Part shown: in pieces, positions 3,107-47,451 of the stretch
Position numbering within the stretch: the stretch's first letter is position 1
Layout: each line of letters opens with the position of its first letter
Source of the DNA: Clostridia bacterium
GTDB lineage: Bacteria; Bacillota; Clostridia; Oscillospirales; Acutalibacteraceae
NCBI GenBank assembly: GCA_030528905.1
Contig: JAUMXZ010000003.1
Location: forward strand, 1-47,781
Direction of reading: 5' to 3'
Length of the DNA stretch: 47,781 bases
The notes under the pieces: generated by a model
What the model was told of the DNA's origin: nothing
The model's database searches: none
Seen by the model: only the letters and a program-made list of their open reading frames with translations
Program-made: the position numbers and the translations under genes

Positions 3107-4216
3107 ATGCTTAATAATAAACGTGCCTACCTGCTCTTGGAAAACGGTAGCTTATTCGAGGCTGATCTGTTCGGTTATGATGAATTTGATGACCTTTGCG
3201 CAGAGATTGTTTTTAACACTTCAATGGTAGGATATACTCAAACTCTTACTGACCCTTCTTACTATGGTCAGATGATCGTTCAAACTTTTCCTCTTATCGG
3301 AAATTATGGCGTGAACCCTTTGGATTTCGAAAATGAAAAATCTTATGTCCGTGCTTATATAGCAAGAGAATTTTGTAAAGAACCCTCAAATTTCAGAAGC
3401 CGTTATTCTATAGAAAAGTTCTTAATAGATAATAAAATACCCGCCCTTTGTAATATAGATACCCGTGCCCTTACTAAACAGCTGAGAACCTGCGGTACTA
3501 TGAATGCAATAATCTTAAAGTCTTTTGATGAAAATGATAAAGACAAGATACTGAAAGAACTTAAAAATTGTAAAATTACCAACGCTATTGCAAAAGTAAG
3601 TACAAAAGAAAGTATCTTCCTTTGCTCTATGCGCCCTTATAGAATAGTTATAATGGATTTTGGCTGCAAAAAAAGCGATGTATATGAGTTTATCGGGGAA
3701 GATTTCGATGTCATTATCGTTCCTTATGATACTACTGCTCAAAAAATTAAACAGCTTAATCCTGATGGCGTTCTTCTTTCAGATGGTCCCAGCGACCCTA
3801 TGGAAAATACTGAAGTTATCAGCGAAATTAAAAAACTTTCTCAAATGAATATGCCTATTTTAGGCGTCGGTATGGGCCACCAGCTCCTCGCTTTGGCAAA
3901 TGGTGCTAAAACTAAAAAATTAAAATATGGTCATAGAGGCTCAAGCCAGCCTGTTAAAGATGTCAATTCCGGAAAAGTATATATCACTGCTCAAAATCAC
4001 GGCTATGTCGTAGATAGAGACTCTCTTTCCGATAATATGCATATGAGATTTGTAAACATAAATGATAACACCTGCGAGGGTATTGAATATACCGATATCC
4101 CTGCTCTGTCCATTCAGTTTAATCTCAAACTTTGCGCCGGCGCACAAGATAGCAACCTTTTGTTGGATGAATTTATTTCAATGGTAAAGGAGAGAAAAAC
4201 AAATGCCTCTAAATAA
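3107..4216 (+). CDS. carA: Carbamoyl-phosphate synthase small subunit with a destroyed glutaminase triad
   Basis: Protein of 369 residues, normal length for CarA. The N-terminal CPSase domain is typical (GYTQTLTDPSYYGQM, IGNYGVNPLDFE, CNIDTRALTKQLR). The C-terminal class I glutaminase domain keeps its frame (MGHQLLALANGAK, QNHGYVVD) but not its chemistry. The nucleophile position of G-[IV]-C-L-G-H-Q is Gly255 (GVGMGHQ), and the His-Pro-Glu motif reads Asn339-Leu340-Lys341. The GPGDP motif is also altered (GPSDP). Known for the family: Cys, His and Glu form the triad that releases ammonia from glutamine. Inference: this subunit cannot hydrolyse glutamine but may still support CarB structurally or allosterically. 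It follows a good promoter and overlaps carB by 14 bases. AAGGAG lies 10 bases before the ATG. The gene is intact with no frameshift. Confidence 0.93.
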   Translation: MLNNKRAYLLLENGSLFEADLFGYDEFDDLCAEIVFNTSMVGYTQTLTDPSYYGQMIVQTFPLIGNYGVNPLDFENEKSYVRAYIAREFCKEPSNFRSRYSIEKFLIDNKIPALCNIDTRALTKQLRTCGTMNAIILKSFDENDKDKILKELKNCKITNAIAKVSTKESIFLCSMRPYRIVIMDFGCKKSDVYEFIGEDFDVIIVPYDTTAQKIKQLNPDGVLLSDGPSDPMENTEVISEIKKLSQMNMPILGVGMGHQLLALANGAKTKKLKYGHRGSSQPVKDVNSGKVYITAQNHGYVVDRDSLSDNMHMRFVNINDNTCEGIEYTDIPALSIQFNLKLCAGAQDSNLLLDEFISMVKERKTNASK

Positions 4217-7200
4217 AAATATCAAGCGTGTTATGGTTATTGGCTCAGGACCTATCGTTATCGGACAGGCTGCTGAATTCGATTATGCCGGAACTCAGGC
4301 TTGCAGAGCTTTGAAAGAAGAAGGCCTCGAGGTAATCCTCGTCAATTCAAACCCCGCTACAATTATGACCGATAATGCTATGGCTGATAAAATCTATATC
4401 GAGCCTCTGACCCTTGCAACTGTTAAAAGAATTATACAAAAAGAACGCCCTGACAGCTTACTCTCTACTTTGGGCGGCCAAACCGGTCTTACTCTTTCTA
4501 TGCAGCTTGCTAAATGCGGCTTTTTGAAAAAGTATGGCGTTAAACTTTTAGGTGCTAACCCTGAAACTATAGATAAGGCTGAAGACAGATTGCTCTTCAA
4601 AGAAGAAATGCAAAAAATCAACCAGCCTGTCATCCCTTCTGTCGTTGTCAATGATGTGTCAACTGCTATAAATTTCGCAAATGAGATAGGCTACCCTCTT
4701 GTTGTAAGACCTGCTTTTACTCTCGGCGGTACCGGCGGCGGTATTGTCTTTAATGAAACCGAACTGATAGAAATTGCTACAAACGGTTTGCAGGCTTCTC
4801 CTATACATCAGGCTCTTATCGAAAAATGTGTATCAGGATATAAAGAAATTGAGTTCGAAGTCGTCAGAGATGCCAATGATAATGCAATAACCGTTTGCTC
4901 TATGGAAAATGTTGATCCTGTTGGAATCCATACCGGCGACAGTATTGTTGTCGCTCCTGCTTTGACTCTTTCAACTAAAGAGTATACTATGCTTCGTCAG
5001 GCTTCTATAGATATCGTTCGTTCTCTGAAAGTAGAAGGCGGCTGTAACTGTCAGTTTGCTCTTGAGCCTAACAGTATGGAATATGCTGTTATCGAAGTTA
5101 ATCCCAGAGTTTCACGCTCTTCTGCTCTTGCTTCAAAGGCTACCGGTTATCCTATTGCTAAAGTTGCTACCAAAATAGCTATCGGCTACACTCTTGATGA
5201 AATCAGAAATACTATTACCGGTAATACTTTTGCCTGCTTTGAACCTGCTATTGATTATGTTGTTGTTAAATTCCCTCGCTGGCCCTTTGATAAGTTTATA
5301 TATGCAAAACGCTTACTCGGGACTCAAATGAAGGCAACCGGCGAAGCTATGTCTATAGGCCAGAGCTTTGAAGAAGCTATTATGAAAGCTGTGCGTGGTG
5401 CTGAGATTTCTCAGGATAGCCTGAATAATCCAACTATGGCAAGCTATTCTGATGAAACTATTATTAAAAAACTCTCTTTTTGCGACGATTTAAGACTCTT
5501 CCTTGTCTTTGAAGCCTTGAAACGCTCAATATCTGTTGATGAAATCAATAAAATCACAAAAATAGATAAGTGGTTCTTAAATAAACTCTTAAATCTTGTT
5601 AATATGGAACGCGAACTTTCTAAACAAAATACTGAATTTATAGACGAAGAACTTTACTTCAAAGCTAAAAAACTCGGCTATACCGATAAACTGATCAAAG
5701 AGTTCTCCGGCTGTAAAATTAAAAACCCTATACTGCCAAAATATAAAATGGTCGATACTTGTGCTGCTGAATATGAAGCTGAGACACCTTACTTCTATGC
5801 AAGCTATGATTGCGAAAATGAGGCACTTCCTTTTGTCGAAAAATCTAAAGACAAGAAAACTGTTATCGTATTCGGCTCCGGTCCGATAAGAATAGGTCAG
5901 GGTATAGAATTTGACTACTCCTGCGTTCACTGCGTTTGGGATCTCAAGCGTATGGGCTATGAGGTGGTTATGGTTAATAATAACCCGGAAACTGTTTCTA
6001 CTGACTTTGACACTGCAGACAGGCTTTATTTTGAACCACTTACCAAAGAAGATGTTCTCGGAATTATAAATACTGAAAAACCTTTCGGTGTCGTTGTGGC
6101 TTTCGGCGGACAAACTGCTATAAAACTTACTAAATTCCTCGACCAGCTAGGCGTTAATATATTAGGCACTTCTTTTGACGGTATAGATATGGCCGAAGAC
6201 AGAGAACGCTTTGATGCCTTACTTGAAAAATATCACGTAAGCAGACCTCAGGGTGTTACTGTTATGACTCTTGATGAAGCCCTAAAAGCTGCTAATACTC
6301 TTGGCTACCCTGTTTTACTCCGTCCCTCATATGTCCTTGGCGGACAAAATATGATAATCGCTTATAATGATAATGATATAGAAGAATATATGGGTGTAAT
6401 CCTTGCTCAAAACATCGAAAACCCCATACTTATAGATAAATATCTTATGGGTACTGAGCTTGAAGTTGATTTGATCTGCGACGGCGAAGATATCTTAATC
6501 CCCGGTATTATGGAGCATATCGAACGCGCCGGAATCCATTCCGGAGACTCTATCGCTGTTTATCCTGCTTTTAATATCAGAGATGAAATGGTCGAAATTA
6601 TGGTCAAAACTTCTGCTAACCTTGCTCTTTCTCTTAAAACTAAGGGCCTTATCAATATCCAATACCTGATCTATGAAGATCAACTCTATGTCATCGAGGT
6701 TAATCCTCGTTCCTCAAGAACTATCCCCTATATCAGTAAGGTAACCGGTATTCCTATGATAGACCTTGCTACACGAGCTATGCTCGGCGAAAAATTAAAA
6801 GATATGGGCTATGGTACCGGACTTTATAAAAATTCTGCTTATACCGCTGTTAAAGTCCCTGTGTTCTCGTTTGAGAAACTTATCAATGTTGATAACCAAT
6901 TAGGCCCTGAAATGAAATCTACCGGCGAAGTCTTAGGTATCGGCTCTACTCTTGAGGAAGGCTTGTTTAAAGGCCTTGTTGCTGCCGGCTATAAAATGGA
7001 AAAATCAGGCGGCGTCTTAATAACTGTCAAGAAAGCCGACCAAAATGAAATAGCTCAGGTCGCTGAAATCTTCGATGAACTCGAATTTGAAATATATGCT
7101 ACTGAAGGTACTGCCAAGGCTTTGGAAAATTCTAATATACACGCTCATGTTGTTAATAAAATCAGTGAGTCAAGCTCACATAACACCTTAACCTTGATCG

Positions 7201-7412
7201 AAAGCGGCAGAATAAATTATGTTATCTCTACTTCTTCCAAAGGCAGATACCCCGAAAGAGACAGCGTTAAAATAAGAAGAAAAAGTATTGAGAAAAATAT
7301 ACCTTGCTTAACTTCTGTCGATACTGCTCTTGCTTTAGCTAACAGCCTCAAAAGCAGATATACCGAATATAGCACCGAGCTTATAAATATAAATAATATG
7401 AGGAGAGATAAA
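4203..7412 (+). CDS. carB: Carbamoyl-phosphate synthase large subunit (N-terminal part of an open CarB-DapF fusion)
   Basis: The CarB portion covers residues 1-1070, the usual full length. Two homologous halves are visible: the first opens with MVIGSGPIVIGQAAEFDYAG and holds the carboxy-phosphate ATP-grasp (LGGTGGGIVFNE); the second opens near residue 556 with VIVFGSGPIRIGQGIEFDYS and holds the carbamate-kinase ATP-grasp (SYVLGGQNMIIAY). A C-terminal MGS-like allosteric domain follows (IYATEGTAKALE to SVDTALALANSLK). The protein makes carbamoyl phosphate from bicarbonate, ATP and ammonia for pyrimidine and arginine synthesis. No stop codon ends the domain: the frame runs through NMRRDK directly into DapF, giving a possible 1353-residue polypeptide ending at 8264. 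With a glutaminase-dead CarA, ammonia would have to enter from solution. Confidence 0.95.
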
Positions 7413-8264
7413 ATGAAGGCAAGATTTACTAAAATGCATGCCTGCGGAAATGATTATATCTATTTTAACTGCTTTAACCAGAATATCACAAATCCGGAAG
7501 GCTTAGCTATACGCCTCTCTGACAGACATTACAGCGTTGGCGGAGACGGTGTAATCCTTGTTTGCCCTTCTGATGTTGCTGATGCCAAAATGCGTATGTT
7601 TAACCTCGACGGAAGCGAAGGTAAAATGTGCGGCAACGGTATTCGCTGTGTCGGTAAATTCTTATATGACCATAATCTTGTCCAGCAGGATAAAAAAGAA
7701 ATTACTATCGAAACTTTATCCGGCATCAAAAAACTCCACCCTTATAAACAAAACAATGAGGTCACAAGCGTTCGTGTCGATATGGGTAAGGCTGAATTGT
7801 TCCCGGAATTTATCCCTGTTTTAGCCCCCGGAAATCTTGAGAAAATTGTTAATATGCCTGTAACTATCGGTAATAAAAATTATCATATTACCTGCGTTTC
7901 AATGGGCAATCCTCACTGCGTTGTTTTCTGCGATAATATCTTTGATATCAATCTTGAAGAAATCGGCCCGTTATTTGAAAATAACGAAATGTTCCCTGAA
8001 AGAATCAATACCGAATTTGTCAGAGTTATAGATAAAAATGTAATACAAATGCGCGTCTGGGAAAGAGGCAGCGGCGAAACTTATGCCTGCGGCACCGGTG
8101 CTTGTGCTGTTGCTGTTGCTGCTGTTGAAAACGGTTACTGCGATAAAGATAAAGATATTCTTGTTAAACTTAAAGGCGGTAATCTGACTGTTCGCTATAC
8201 CGACCAAACCGTTTATATGACAGGTGAGGCTGTAAAAGTATTTGAGGGAGATATTGAAATATGA
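7413..8264 (+). CDS. dapF: Diaminopimelate epimerase, in frame with carB but with its own start site
   Basis: From the ATG at 7413 this is a 283-residue DapF of normal length. It interconverts LL- and meso-diaminopimelate for peptidoglycan and lysine. The two catalytic cysteines are present: Cys73 in [14 protein letters not shown] and Cys226 in [28 protein letters not shown] at the N-terminus is also typical. AGGAGA at 7401-7406 lies 6 bases before the ATG, so a free DapF can probably be made. However, the upstream carB frame enters without a stop, so CarB-DapF fusion protein should also form unless ribosomes terminate or the sequence holds an error. The stop overlaps the pyrG start by 4 bases (ATGA). 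dapL two genes downstream makes its LL-DAP substrate. Confidence 0.93.
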
Positions 8265-11072: not shown

Positions 11073-11624
11073 TTGTCAAGATCTTTTAATATAGCTGCCA
11101 ATGCAGAAGATGCTTTTAAAAAAAATGATATTAAACTTATTATCTGCTACCTCTTATCAAATATCGATGCCGGTCTGAAAAAAGATGATATTGTTTCTGT
11201 TTTGTCAAAATGTTCAGTCGCTAATTATTTTGAAATAACAAATGCTTTTTCTGAACTCATTACCCAAAAACATATCTCATCTTCTCTTGATGATACAGAA
11301 CTATTCTTTATTACCGATACCGGTAAAATTATCTCAGAACAGCTTTCTGTCTCTCTTCCCTATTCGCTAAGAGAAAAGGTTATTTCTCAAACTCTTAAAC
11401 TGCTCTCTAAGACAAAAAGAGAAACCGAAAATTCTGTTAATATCAAAAATTGTGAAAATGGCTATATTGTTGAGTGTAATATCTCCGGCACTAATATCGA
11501 TCTACTTACCCTGTCTATTTATGCTCCGGATCTTATGCAGGCTGAACTTATAAAGGAAAGCTTTTTGAAAAAACCCGAAAAATTTTATCAGGCAGTTTTA
11601 TCTTTAATTCCCTTGGAAGAATAA
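11073..11624 (+). CDS. DUF4364 family protein, winged-helix-like
   Basis: Protein of 183 residues that I recognise as the DUF4364 type found in Firmicutes. The N-terminal 80 residues look like a winged helix (IKLIICYLLSNIDAGLKKDDIVSVL, then NYFEITNAFSELITQKHI), and the C-terminal part is a mixed alpha/beta domain. Function is unknown; DNA binding is an inference from the fold. The start is TTG at 11073 behind AAGGAAG, 18 bases after dapL, so it is the last gene of the operon. It might regulate the operon, but nothing in the sequence shows this. Confidence 0.7.
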   Translation: MSRSFNIAANAEDAFKKNDIKLIICYLLSNIDAGLKKDDIVSVLSKCSVANYFEITNAFSELITQKHISSSLDDTELFFITDTGKIISEQLSVSLPYSLREKVISQTLKLLSKTKRETENSVNIKNCENGYIVECNISGTNIDLLTLSIYAPDLMQAELIKESFLKKPEKFYQAVLSLIPLEE

Positions 11625-11643
11625 AAACTTTTTACTATATAAT

Positions 11644-11684
11644 CAGCATTAAGATAAGTGCTTACTAAACTTATTTTAATGCTG
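11644..11684 (+). promoter_or_regulatory. Long AT-rich hairpin upstream of the adenine-deaminase-like gene
   Basis: A 16-base inverted repeat (11644-11659 against 11669-11684) pairs completely in RNA if one G-U pair is allowed, with a 9-base loop. It is followed by a T-rich stretch (AAATTTTTAT) and then directly by the ribosome binding site of the next gene. It could end the dapL-DUF4364 transcript or act as a 5' leader structure. A TATAAT at 11638-11643 just before it, with a poorly spaced TTGGAA at 11613, would put the hairpin at the very 5' end of a new transcript. Confidence 0.55.
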
Positions 11685-11708
11685 AAATTTTTATAAAAGG
11701 TGATAATT

Positions 11709-13370
11709 GTGGATAATAATATCTTAAATAATTATATGAATATAACACTTAATCGTGATAAGTCCTTCTTTATTTTCAGAAATGCCCGAATTGTTAATGT
11801 AATTAGTGATGAAGTTAAAAAATGTGATATCGCTGTTTGCAACGGTACTATTGTTGCTATTTCTGATTATTTGGAAAATATAAAAGCTGATGACGAAATA
11901 GACCTTAAAGGTAAGTTTGTTTGCCCCGGATTTATAAACACTTATACTGTTTTGGAATCCTCCTTGATGTCTTTACAGGACTACGATATGCTATCTCTTA
12001 AAAACGGTACTACAACTTTTGTTGCTGATTTGACTAATGTCTATAACATAGCAGGATATTCAGGTATAGCTAATTATTTGAAAGAATCTGAAAATCTTAA
12101 CTGTAACCCATATTTTTTACTCCCTGTATCCGCTCTGAAAAATGAAAACATCTCACAGATTCTATCCTGTGACTCTATCTTAGGCCTGACTGTTTCTCCT
12201 GATGACCTTTCAGACTCCCAAAACTATAAACATATCTTTGAGTCCTTAAATCACACAAAAATTAAAAACATCTTGCCTGTTATGCCTCTTTACTCAGAAA
12301 ATAACATCAAAAATTTAAGCCTCTTCTCGACTTGTGCCATAGTCGGCGCATCTTCTGTTGAGGAAGCTTCTCAAGTTTTACGCGCTGGAAAGTCTTTGTC
12401 TATACGCGACGGCTCATATGTGAATAATGTGCGAAATATAATAGTCGGTGCAATAAGAAACTTTTTGCCTATGAATGTCTTTTCTTTTAACACATATCTT
12501 AAAAATGCTAAAGATCTGATAAACGACGGCTTTATAAATGCTTCTGTTAAAAAAGCTGTAAATGCCGGGCTTAACCCTGTGTATGCTGTAAAGATGGCAA
12601 CCATAAATGCTTCTTCTGTCTACTCTCTTAATCATCTTGGCTCTATTTCTGTTGGCAAACAGGCTGATATGGTCGTTTTAAATGACCTTACAAGCGTTGA
12701 TATTGATTCTGTATATGTAAAAGGAAAATGTGTTAATAAATCTTCTTCTGCGCCATACTATCCTCCTAACTTCTTTAACACTATAAGCACAAAAAAATTA
12801 AAACCTGATATATTATCTGTTGATCCTATAGACAATATTACTGTTATCAAGATCCTTAATGATTCTATGACCACTTTCTGTTCTGATAAAAAATCTTCTG
12901 AAAATTTTGATAGCCTGAATAAAATTTTTGTTTCTGATAAAAATTTCGATAACACCTCTATTGCTTACATTGAAAATATCGGGATAAAAAATGCTGCTGT
13001 TGCTTCAAGCATCTCTTTGCAAAATGATATTATATCAATCGGCGATAATGATGATGATATGTTCCTTGCGCTAAACAGACTCCAACAATCAGGCGGCGGT
13101 ATTGTAATCGTTAGTAATAATACTGTTGTCTCAGAAATTCATTTGCCGGTGCTTGCTGCTGTTTCCAAACTGCCTGTTAAAAAACTTTTAGAACAAATCA
13201 CCGAATTTGAGTCTAATCTTCAAAATATAAACTTCAACAGTAAACTCAATCTATTCTCTGTTCTTAATAACATCACTTCCACTAACATCCCTAAAGTCAA
13301 AATTACTCCAAACGGCATATTTGATGTTCTTTCTAAAAGTTTTGTAAATCTAAAACCTCAAAACAAATAG
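11709..13370 (+). CDS. Adenine-deaminase-like amidohydrolase lacking all metal-binding motifs (pseudoenzyme)
   Basis: Protein of 553 residues, close to the usual 575-590 of adenine deaminase. The start chosen is GTG at 11709, 6 bases after AAGGTGAT; an earlier in-frame GTG at 11700 overlaps that site. Scaffold motifs are clear: KFVCPGFIN, LESSL, NGTTTFVADL, VKMATINASSVYSL, LGSISVGKQADMVVLNDL, and the C-terminal DNDDDMFLALNRL, QSGGGIVIV and KITPNGIFDVL. The catalytic motifs are gone. DAHIHIESS reads NTYTVLESS (Tyr79 and Val81 for the two His), ADPHE reads ADLTN (107-110), the S-D-H-E motif reads A-I-V-G (about 210-213), T-D-D reads T-Y-L, and A-H-D-S-H-N is replaced. It is probably not a deaminase. 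The long open frame argues for a retained non-catalytic role rather than decay. Confidence 0.75.
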   Translation: MDNNILNNYMNITLNRDKSFFIFRNARIVNVISDEVKKCDIAVCNGTIVAISDYLENIKADDEIDLKGKFVCPGFINTYTVLESSLMSLQDYDMLSLKNGTTTFVADLTNVYNIAGYSGIANYLKESENLNCNPYFLLPVSALKNENISQILSCDSILGLTVSPDDLSDSQNYKHIFESLNHTKIKNILPVMPLYSENNIKNLSLFSTCAIVGASSVEEASQVLRAGKSLSIRDGSYVNNVRNIIVGAIRNFLPMNVFSFNTYLKNAKDLINDGFINASVKKAVNAGLNPVYAVKMATINASSVYSLNHLGSISVGKQADMVVLNDLTSVDIDSVYVKGKCVNKSSSAPYYPPNFFNTISTKKLKPDILSVDPIDNITVIKILNDSMTTFCSDKKSSENFDSLNKIFVSDKNFDNTSIAYIENIGIKNAAVASSISLQNDIISIGDNDDDMFLALNRLQQSGGGIVIVSNNTVVSEIHLPVLAAVSKLPVKKLLEQITEFESNLQNINFNSKLNLFSVLNNITSTNIPKVKITPNGIFDVLSKSFVNLKPQNK

Positions 13371-13469: not shown

Positions 13470-14018
13470 ATGAAAAAATTATCTTTATTTCTATCTTTAT
13501 TGTCTTTAACTTTTATTTTGTTCGCTTTCTCAGCCTGCGGCGCCGGTGATGTCGGCAGTGATGAATATATGGCTAAAAAAGCTGCAAGTGAAAATGCTGC
13601 ATTAACCGGCCAAACTCAAACAGACCCTGCTGAAAAAGAACCTGAGTGGGACCCCACTTTTGACGGCCTAATTGAATGTTTTAAGTGGCACGGTTATATC
13701 GATGTTAATACAAAATTCAATACCGCTGCTGATGTAGTTGGTGCTAATGTCGGCTATCGCTTTACCTCAAATGCCTGCGCAAGCGGCCCGTTTAATCTTG
13801 AACTGTATTACTATGACCCTCAGAATCCTTTGGGAAATTCCCAGGAATTTATAAACAAAATAAAAGAGTCTGGACATTTTACTTTACTCGACAATGACAT
13901 ACAATCTGTCGTGTCCAATAACGGTAAATATATGATGGTGTATTCAAGCACCTCTACTAAACCTGAAGACCTTGAGAAAAAACAGGAAATATATGATGTA
14001 TTGATAAATTTTAATTAA
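13470..14018 (+). CDS. Small predicted lipoprotein of unknown function
   Basis: Protein of 182 residues. It starts with a lipoprotein signal peptide: positive MKKL, a hydrophobic core, and the lipobox FSAC with Cys23 as the lipidated residue. A 30-residue linker rich in Ala, Glu and Lys follows, then a compact domain of about 130 residues with aromatic residues (GLIECFKWHGYIDV, NLELYYYDPQNPLG). After removal of the signal it should be anchored on the outer face of the membrane. I recognise no family. AAGGAG lies 10 bases before the ATG, and the gene is 15 bases upstream of ybaB. It has no obvious functional link to the DNA-repair genes that follow. Confidence 0.75.
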   Translation: MKKLSLFLSLLSLTFILFAFSACGAGDVGSDEYMAKKAASENAALTGQTQTDPAEKEPEWDPTFDGLIECFKWHGYIDVNTKFNTAADVVGANVGYRFTSNACASGPFNLELYYYDPQNPLGNSQEFINKIKESGHFTLLDNDIQSVVSNNGKYMMVYSSTSTKPEDLEKKQEIYDVLINFN

Positions 14019-41670: not shown

Positions 41671-41756
41671 AACAGTAACCGGCCTCACTTTCTTTAATTA
41701 GACTCGCTGTTTATAGGCAGCTTACGCATTTAAAGCCTACACCAAGCGGTTATATC
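41671..41756 (-). ncRNA. Putative L21 leader (structured 5' UTR of rplU)
   Basis: The roughly 85-base leader is free of genes and structured. CAGC/GCTG segments (41718-41721 with 41706-41709) form a hairpin, and TAGG inside its loop (41714-41717) can pair with CCTA at 41736-41739, a pseudoknot-like layout. Firmicutes L21 operons are known to carry an autoregulatory leader RNA at this place; assignment to that family rests on position and structure only. Confidence 0.5.
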
Positions 41757-41785
41757 ATTTTACACCACTAAAATGAAAATGTCAA
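41757..41785 (-). promoter_or_regulatory. Consensus SigA promoter of rplU-prp-rpmA
   Basis: On the minus strand a perfect TTGACA (41785-41780) and TAAAAT (41762-41757) are separated by 17 bases. Confidence 0.85.
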
Positions 41786-45799: not shown

Positions 45800-46381
45800 T
45801 TAATCTTCTTCCAATGATATTGTATCTATTTCATCCCACATAAGATCTTTATTATCCATATCATCAAAACAAAGGTCTAAACTTTCTATCTTATCCCAGC
45901 TGAAATTCCTGAAGTCAAACACGACATTCAAATGTGCCGGTGTAAAACTTTTTGCTAATTCTATTGCCTTTTCCTGTGTCAAACTTTTATCAAGCATAGA
46001 TATGCAGCTTATGAAAATTGTAAACTCACCCGGACTTTCAAATATCTCAGTTTCTAAGCCACAGGCTAACAAGGCTTTTTTTATCCCTTCCATATTAAAA
46101 TCATTCGCTGTTACTGAGCTTCTGTAATTAAGCATTCTTCGTCTGTTTTCAATCGTTTCTTCTGATAACTTCCTGTCACTTAATTCCTCTCTGATACTAA
46201 GCCCATAATCTTCTGCTGTCGCAACAAATGCTTCCTGTTCTAAATTGCTAAGTTCTCTGTCTAATATCTCAAGCCCTTTTGCATATGCACAGAGTTCTGC
46301 GTGTACAAGGCTCTTATCATCAAGCTTATATAGCCCTGTCGGTCTTAACCCTGCTTTTAATCTGTTTAATTGCTCTTGCAT
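45800..46381 (-). CDS. DUF2313/YmfQ-type phage baseplate protein
   Basis: Protein of 193 residues. Features of the YmfQ (Mu gp48-like) family are LNRLKAGLRPTGLYKL near the N-terminus, LEQEAFVATAEDYGLSIREEL in the middle, and the FTIFISC and AHLNVVFDFRNFSWDKIESL segments. Such proteins form part of the baseplate of contractile tails, and the gene lies directly after baseplate J as in Mu-like and PBSX-like phages. The C-terminal acidic repeat (SLDLCFDDMDNKDLMWDEID) is unusual and may contact the fibre. Confidence 0.85.
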   Translation of the reverse strand: MQEQLNRLKAGLRPTGLYKLDDKSLVHAELCAYAKGLEILDRELSNLEQEAFVATAEDYGLSIREELSDRKLSEETIENRRRMLNYRSSVTANDFNMEGIKKALLACGLETEIFESPGEFTIFISCISMLDKSLTQEKAIELAKSFTPAHLNVVFDFRNFSWDKIESLDLCFDDMDNKDLMWDEIDTISLEED

Positions 46382-46386
46382 ATATC

Positions 46387-47451
46387 TTAGCCTTCCTTTT
46401 CTGTAATACTTATTGTTCCGACTACAGCTTTTTGGCCCTGTGTCATAACCATATCACTGCCAAAATTACCTATTATGTAATTTTCTACACCATCTACATT
46501 TAATATTCTGTTTCCTGCTACAGCCAAATAATAATTTTCTCCTATGCCCAAAGAATTTATGTACTCAGCCACTGCATTCTCACAATTTTCCTTGACGCTT
46601 TCAAAGTCATAACCCTGTTTACAACTTATTCCAAAATACGCAGTACAGTTTACCTGTTCAGGACTTAACACTTCTACATCAACATTTATTTCTCTGAGAT
46701 TATCAAATTCGTTTTGCATCAAATCTATTAAATCCTGTGACGGCTCACCACCTGCCCAGATATATACATCAACAGTACCCACTCCTCTTTGCAGTCCTAT
46801 AACTCCTGCTGACGTAACATTTTCATTTTTTAAAGCCTGCTCCTTATAAAATGCTGTGTTTGTACCATTTGAAATATTCCTATAACTCTCTATTATCCTT
46901 TTCCTCAGATTCTCATCGCTTTCTTCTTCTGTACCTCCTGTAAAAGCCTGTATGTTCATTACCTCAGATATGCCGGGAAGAGATGTGATAATGACGCTTA
47001 TACTGCCTGCCTTACAGTTGCCTTTTTTGCCCTCATCCAAAGATCTTGCTTTTAGCGTTACTTCTAAGTCTCCTGCATATAAAATCCCTTCTTCCACGGT
47101 TTCATATCTGCTGTCCTGAACACTTGCTGTGCTGCACACTGTTCCAATCGGGATATTTATATCATATGATACCGGGGTTTGGATATAAAAAGTCAACTCG
47201 CCCTGGGCTTTCACAGCTTTTTTTCTTTCTATTCCTCTTTCTTGTGCGTGATAATCAAGTTGGATATCAGTTGCTGTCTGAACAAACATCTGTTTTTTTA
47301 ACCATTCGGTATTTATAAGACAATTATATATTTCTCCTGCTAATAATCTTATTCTGATTCCTATGTCAGATGCATCATCTGCAGAATATCCGGCTAAATT
47401 TCTAAATTCTTCATTCATTGAATTTAAAATTTCTTCATAGCTTTTACTCAT
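46387..47451 (-). CDS. Phage baseplate J family protein
   Basis: Protein of 354 residues with the baseplate J core: GDIGIRIRLLAGEI-like N-terminus (SDIGIRIRLLAGEIYN), RGIERKKAVKAQGELTFYI, FTGGTEEESDENLRKRI, GVGTVDVYIWAGG, and the C-terminal LNVDGVENYII. It forms wedges of contractile-tail baseplates. GGAGG lies just before the ATG. It sits between the gp25/W and DUF2313 genes in the standard order. Confidence 0.95.
   Translation of the reverse strand: MSKSYEEILNSMNEEFRNLAGYSADDASDIGIRIRLLAGEIYNCLINTEWLKKQMFVQTATDIQLDYHAQERGIERKKAVKAQGELTFYIQTPVSYDINIPIGTVCSTASVQDSRYETVEEGILYAGDLEVTLKARSLDEGKKGNCKAGSISVIITSLPGISEVMNIQAFTGGTEEESDENLRKRIIESYRNISNGTNTAFYKEQALKNENVTSAGVIGLQRGVGTVDVYIWAGGEPSQDLIDLMQNEFDNLREINVDVEVLSPEQVNCTAYFGISCKQGYDFESVKENCENAVAEYINSLGIGENYYLAVAGNRILNVDGVENYIIGNFGSDMVMTQGQKAVVGTISITEKEG

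Follow-up and report, generated by a model that had tools for sequence, protein, structure and literature searches.

A full-length adenine deaminase homologue without any of its six metal ligands, probably retained as a pseudoenzyme in a reduced Clostridia genome

The window analysed here is a stretch of 47,781 nucleotides from a Clostridia bacterium, and corresponds to contig C136 of a genome (1.42 Mb in 145 contigs, 99.5% complete) that is the only one in its genus; the gene content and the named homologues likewise point to an organism of Clostridia type. Positions 11709-13370 (+) hold an unbroken frame of 553 codons, with a GTG start at 11709 and a stop at 13370, encoding a probable adenine deaminase-like pseudoenzyme of 553 amino acids, as judged from the frame, from Pfam and NCBIfam homology and from the AlphaFold2 fold. 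A Shine-Dalgarno, AAAAGGTG, can be read at 11695-11702 (+), six bases 5′ of the GTG. As the start at 11700 in a mechanical list of open reading frames falls within this Shine-Dalgarno, the start at 11709 given by the initial annotation is preferable; residue numbers are nevertheless counted from 11700. The probability that a composition-matched frame of 556 codons is open by chance is ~5e-18, and the codon positions are of coding type (GC1>GC2>GC3, with a GC3 of 29% vs 20% GC in the flanking spacers). The frame without frameshifts that the initial annotation had described is, consequently, borne out.

The upstream neighbour encodes a DUF4364 protein (11073-11624, +; Pfam) and the downstream one a small putative lipoprotein without a family match (13470-14018, +; family search). 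In the spacer that separates the pseudoenzyme gene from the DUF4364 gene, folding indicates a near-perfect hairpin with a 17-bp stem (11643-11685, +), a terminator or a leader, which occurs once in the window (a 90-nt fold with a minimum free energy of -26 kcal/mol and z -6.1). The outer base pairs of this hairpin include the Shine-Dalgarno of the pseudoenzyme gene, and it may either stop transcription coming from the upstream operon or regulate the pseudoenzyme gene. Rfam gave no match and no known riboswitch upstream of this gene, and neither a transporter nor a regulator gene of obvious relevance adjoins it.

The genes nearby, carA, carB-dapF, pyrG and dapL, belong to pyrimidine and lysine metabolism. 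Parts of the carB-dapF-pyrG-dapL order recur in related genera without the pseudoenzyme gene, so that adjacency to these genes is weak evidence of a partnership. No conserved neighbourhood was found for the pseudoenzyme gene, and the active relatives examined have other neighbours. carB and dapF share one open frame of 1353 amino acids (4203-8264, +), and a similar fused frame is present in another genus (L230:33-2723). Inside this frame, dapF still has an ATG of its own at ~7413 as well as a Shine-Dalgarno-like AGGAGAG, so that DapF may be made both fused to CarB and separately. Elsewhere in the window lie a ribosomal protein L21 leader RNA (RF00559, 46.2 bits; 41690-41761, -) and, at its end, phage tail-type genes (45800-47451, -; Baseplate_J, and a Mu Gp48-like match that stays under its cut-off), which may mark the border of a prophage or of a tail-like element.

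The pseudoenzyme matches Amidohydro_1 and the adenine deaminase C-terminal domain PF13382 (105.5 bits; 12912-13334, +; Pfam and alignment), and TIGR01178 covers residues 24-550 at 261.9 bits, under the equivalog cut-off of 472.5. The full length of the family, an amidohydrolase barrel followed by the PF13382 domain, is therefore present, and the best solved relative is the Agrobacterium adenine deaminase Atu4426 (PDB 3nqb). An AlphaFold2 model built from 55 sequences, in which the alignment of active relatives helped, reached a pLDDT of 90.3 and a pTM of 0.91 and could be superposed on 3nqb over 547 residues (Z 42.0, rmsd 3.0). An active-type relative (L116) given the same treatment yielded a pLDDT of 94.4, a pTM of 0.93 and a match to 3nqb over 559 residues (Z 46.1, rmsd 2.6). 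The structure prediction that the initial annotation had proposed thus returns a confident adenine deaminase fold and, together with the TIGR01178 match, agrees with its description of a full-length homologue.

The metal ligands of Bacillus subtilis YerA are His87, His89, Glu179 (bridging), His210, His231 and Asp283 (PMC12133300). These six columns are ~100% conserved among 152 homologues and are occupied in the pseudoenzyme by Y82, V84, V165, V194, V215 and Y266, so that none of the six ligands of the binuclear site (HxH, Glu, His, His, Asp) is left. According to the homologue alignment, Y82-T-V84 (11943-11951, +) replaces the metal-binding HxH and D110-L-T-N113 (12027-12038, +) replaces DPHE, while after P142 (12123-12131, +) the active-site loop, SCVPxxxFExxG in active relatives, has lost ~11 residues of its SCVPxxxFE stretch. 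T164-V165 (12189-12194, +) stands in for the Gly-Glu with the bridging ligand and P193-V194 (12276-12281, +) for the Gly-His with a ligand His, the ligands being those of PMC12133300; V215-G216 (12342-12347, +) replaces the His-Glu of TDHE, where His is again a ligand, although at residues 193-216 the alignment register could be off by one or two positions. Y266-L267 (12495-12500, +) takes the place of the Asp-Asp that provides a ligand and the general base. At the level of whole motifs, TDHE has become a stretch without His, TDDKH reads TYLKN and the two lid motifs of the C-terminal domain are lost, ERH having become S-D-K and HDSHN L-QND. The whole protein contains only four His (178, 185, 312 and 481), none of them at a ligand column. 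Metal-site inspection, also proposed in the initial annotation, consequently makes its claim that every metal-binding motif is replaced somewhat stronger than stated, since the bridging Glu of GE(M/V)M, the His of DGH and the loop, which it had not listed, are lost as well. Adenine is contacted in both YerA and Atu4426 by one Arg, one Asp and one His (PMC12133300), and only the first is kept, as R236 (12405-12407, +; Arg252 of YerA, Arg260 of Atu4426). From these replacements we infer that the protein would be dead for the two-metal adenine deamination known from the family.

By contrast with the active site, much of the scaffold remains. The pseudoenzyme keeps ESS, GTTT, N116, LGL, R236-D-G-S, MATINAS, GSISVGKQADMVVL and SGGGI, and the retained scaffold motifs that had been pointed out earlier are thus indeed present. 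Of the 77 columns conserved at ≥90% in the family, 42 are kept, and these family-invariant residues are distributed very unevenly: 40/54 outside the active-site motifs vs 2/23 inside (Fisher p ~1e-7), with a motif set drawn up when the finding was already known; for the six literature-defined ligands alone the contrast has p = 0.007. Hydrophobic-core columns are 89% kept, vs 94-100% in active homologues, and polar columns are mostly still polar, just 12.5% being hydrophobic. When neutral drift was simulated from the gene of an active relative, a mean of 7.2, 10.5 and 13.6 stops had accumulated at 70, 60 and 50% of residues remaining, so that ~7-14 stops would be expected from drift alone at comparable divergence, vs none in the frame. 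The open frame, the missing stops, the retained hydrophobic columns and the still polar ones support, indirectly and from a single sequence, the view that the protein has long been selected as a folded protein, over most of its long branch.

The divergence is, in any case, considerable. Median identity is 43% among active homologues and 28% between these and the pseudoenzyme, whose branch carries 4.3 changes per column vs a median of 0.59 (~seven times the median). Additionally, Asn and Ser make up 23% of the protein, the highest value in the window (9-18% in the 23 other proteins), Glu and Arg are low and there is no Trp. The long branch and this composition indicate a constraint far weaker than the one acting on the enzyme, or one of another kind.

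The initial annotation had also raised the question of whether a dead clade is widespread, and a single sequence was found in everything searched. No relatives above ~33% identity were detected in ~1,580 genome searches, in which some genomes were sampled more than once (398 from the family, 394 from the order, 391 from the class and 398 from the phylum), and no close relatives in the genome contigs searched with the pseudoenzyme sequence. An alignment-based search of genome contigs, in which two of the three patterns favour active enzymes, returned at least 80 homologues, and all 75 that were checked have full motifs and ≤31% identity to the pseudoenzyme. Viral contigs gave no match to the sequence alone and two active-type homologues with the alignment as query. 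Because of its long branch, the pseudoenzyme has no firm position in the family tree.

Regarding metabolism, the genome carries an adenosine deaminase over its cut-off, an adenine phosphoribosyltransferase-type (Apt-type) protein, PRPP synthase, PyrE, PyrB and OTCase, whereas an NCS2 purine permease was not found in it. With the Apt-type protein and adenosine deaminase present, adenine could be handled without the pseudoenzyme. The genome probably lacks adenine deaminase activity, although homology-based annotation could name this protein an adenine deaminase. A dihydroorotase-like frame (pyrC) with its histidine motifs in place lies at a contig end, next to frames identified by inspection as pyrK and pyrD; these genes and pyrB (contig C1) are on contigs other than that of the pseudoenzyme.

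Since every metal-holding residue has been replaced, a structural or binding job is probable instead of chemistry. The explanation that we favour, and consider reasonably probable, is that of a metal-free pseudoenzyme derived from an ordinary adenine deaminase, whose barrel and C-terminal domain persist in a structural role or as a protein partner. With all its metal ligands gone, and the general base, the loop and both lid motifs as well, the fast-changing descendant would be kept for what the folded barrel and C-terminal domain can do without metals. Against this reading, the hairpin upstream could stop transcription ahead of the gene. By analogy with the pseudo-dihydroorotase and the CRMPs, which have the same barrel, its likeliest job would be that of a non-catalytic protein partner or scaffold. 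An active paralogue was ruled out as the partner, because the pseudoenzyme is the sole PF13382 gene in its genome.

Alternatively, the gene could be a slowly decaying relic of a dispensable activity, with relaxed constraint and a frame that is still unbroken. The branch length, the reduced core retention and the drift-like richness in Asn and Ser also fit relaxed constraint, as do the occurrence in a single genome, which is reduced (1.4 Mb) and has other routes for adenine, and the absence of a conserved neighbourhood. However, there are neither stops nor frameshifts where drift alone predicts ~7-13 stops, the losses are concentrated in the active site and not spread evenly, the Shine-Dalgarno is intact and the predicted fold is confident, so that we regard decay as rather unlikely.

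It has also to be considered that the old pocket, without metals, holds a purine or some other small ligand, which it signals or buffers. Although Arg236 and its GS neighbours are kept and the C-terminal lid domain is still recognisable, the counterparts of His94 and Asp289 have been lost together with the loop and the lid motifs, the former site is now mostly Val, Leu, Tyr and Pro, Arg236 may serve structure, and no known riboswitch or relevant transporter or regulator gene adjoins. Ligand binding is, consequently, improbable. The initial interpretation stands in part: death for the known metal chemistry and long selection as a fold agree with the lack of stops, the core, the motif contrast and the fold, whereas the nucleobase sensing that it suggested is weakly supported, and the partnership of the pseudo-dihydroorotase type that it invoked is an analogy only, with pyrB and pyrC on other contigs. 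A more specific role, with the protein as an indispensable subunit or an allosteric regulator of some other enzyme of nucleotide metabolism, perhaps the neighbour-encoded carbamoyl phosphate synthase or CTP synthase, seems very doubtful; if true, the adenine deaminase family would thereby gain its first known regulatory pseudoenzyme. Finally, Y82, T112, Y266 and K268 do lie at or near former active-site positions, but a barrel remodelled for chemistry without metals or with another coordination is most improbable: no new catalytic set is recognisable, no relatives show one conserved, and none of the only four His is at the site.

Among known systems, the pseudoenzyme shares its domain order, predicted fold, scaffold motifs and PF13382 domain with adenine deaminase (Ade/AdeC, TIGR01178; Atu4426, 3NQB; B. 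subtilis YerA), from which it differs in having no metal ligand and no active-site loop, in scoring under the TIGR01178 cut-off and in its identity of ≤~33%. A dead amidohydrolase from this branch was not found in a limited literature search, while the dihydroorotase and dihydropyrimidinase branches are known to include dead amidohydrolases with a job. For instance, the pseudo-dihydroorotase of class A2 aspartate transcarbamoylase has lost its zinc ligands and substrate residues and is nonetheless kept (PMC7053772). Both proteins have retained the amidohydrolase barrel after the loss of the ligands; ours, however, comes from a different amidohydrolase family and adjoins no ATCase gene, pyrB being on contig C1, outside the window. 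Descent from a dihydroorotase was ruled out, as the best matches are adenine deaminases and PF13382 is present. The CRMP/DPYSL proteins are likewise amidohydrolase barrels, with most of the metal ligands gone and functions other than catalysis; CRMP-4 retains 2/6 ligands and 58% identity to its enzyme (PMC4051505), whereas the pseudoenzyme, which is bacterial and not neuronal, keeps 0/6 at ~30% identity. The PHP domain of E. coli DNA polymerase III has also lost its metal site and is kept for structure (PMC3666897), although it belongs to an unrelated metallo-enzyme family and is a domain of a larger protein. Beside these systems, the pseudoenzyme described here presents the total loss of a metal site with the scaffold retained.
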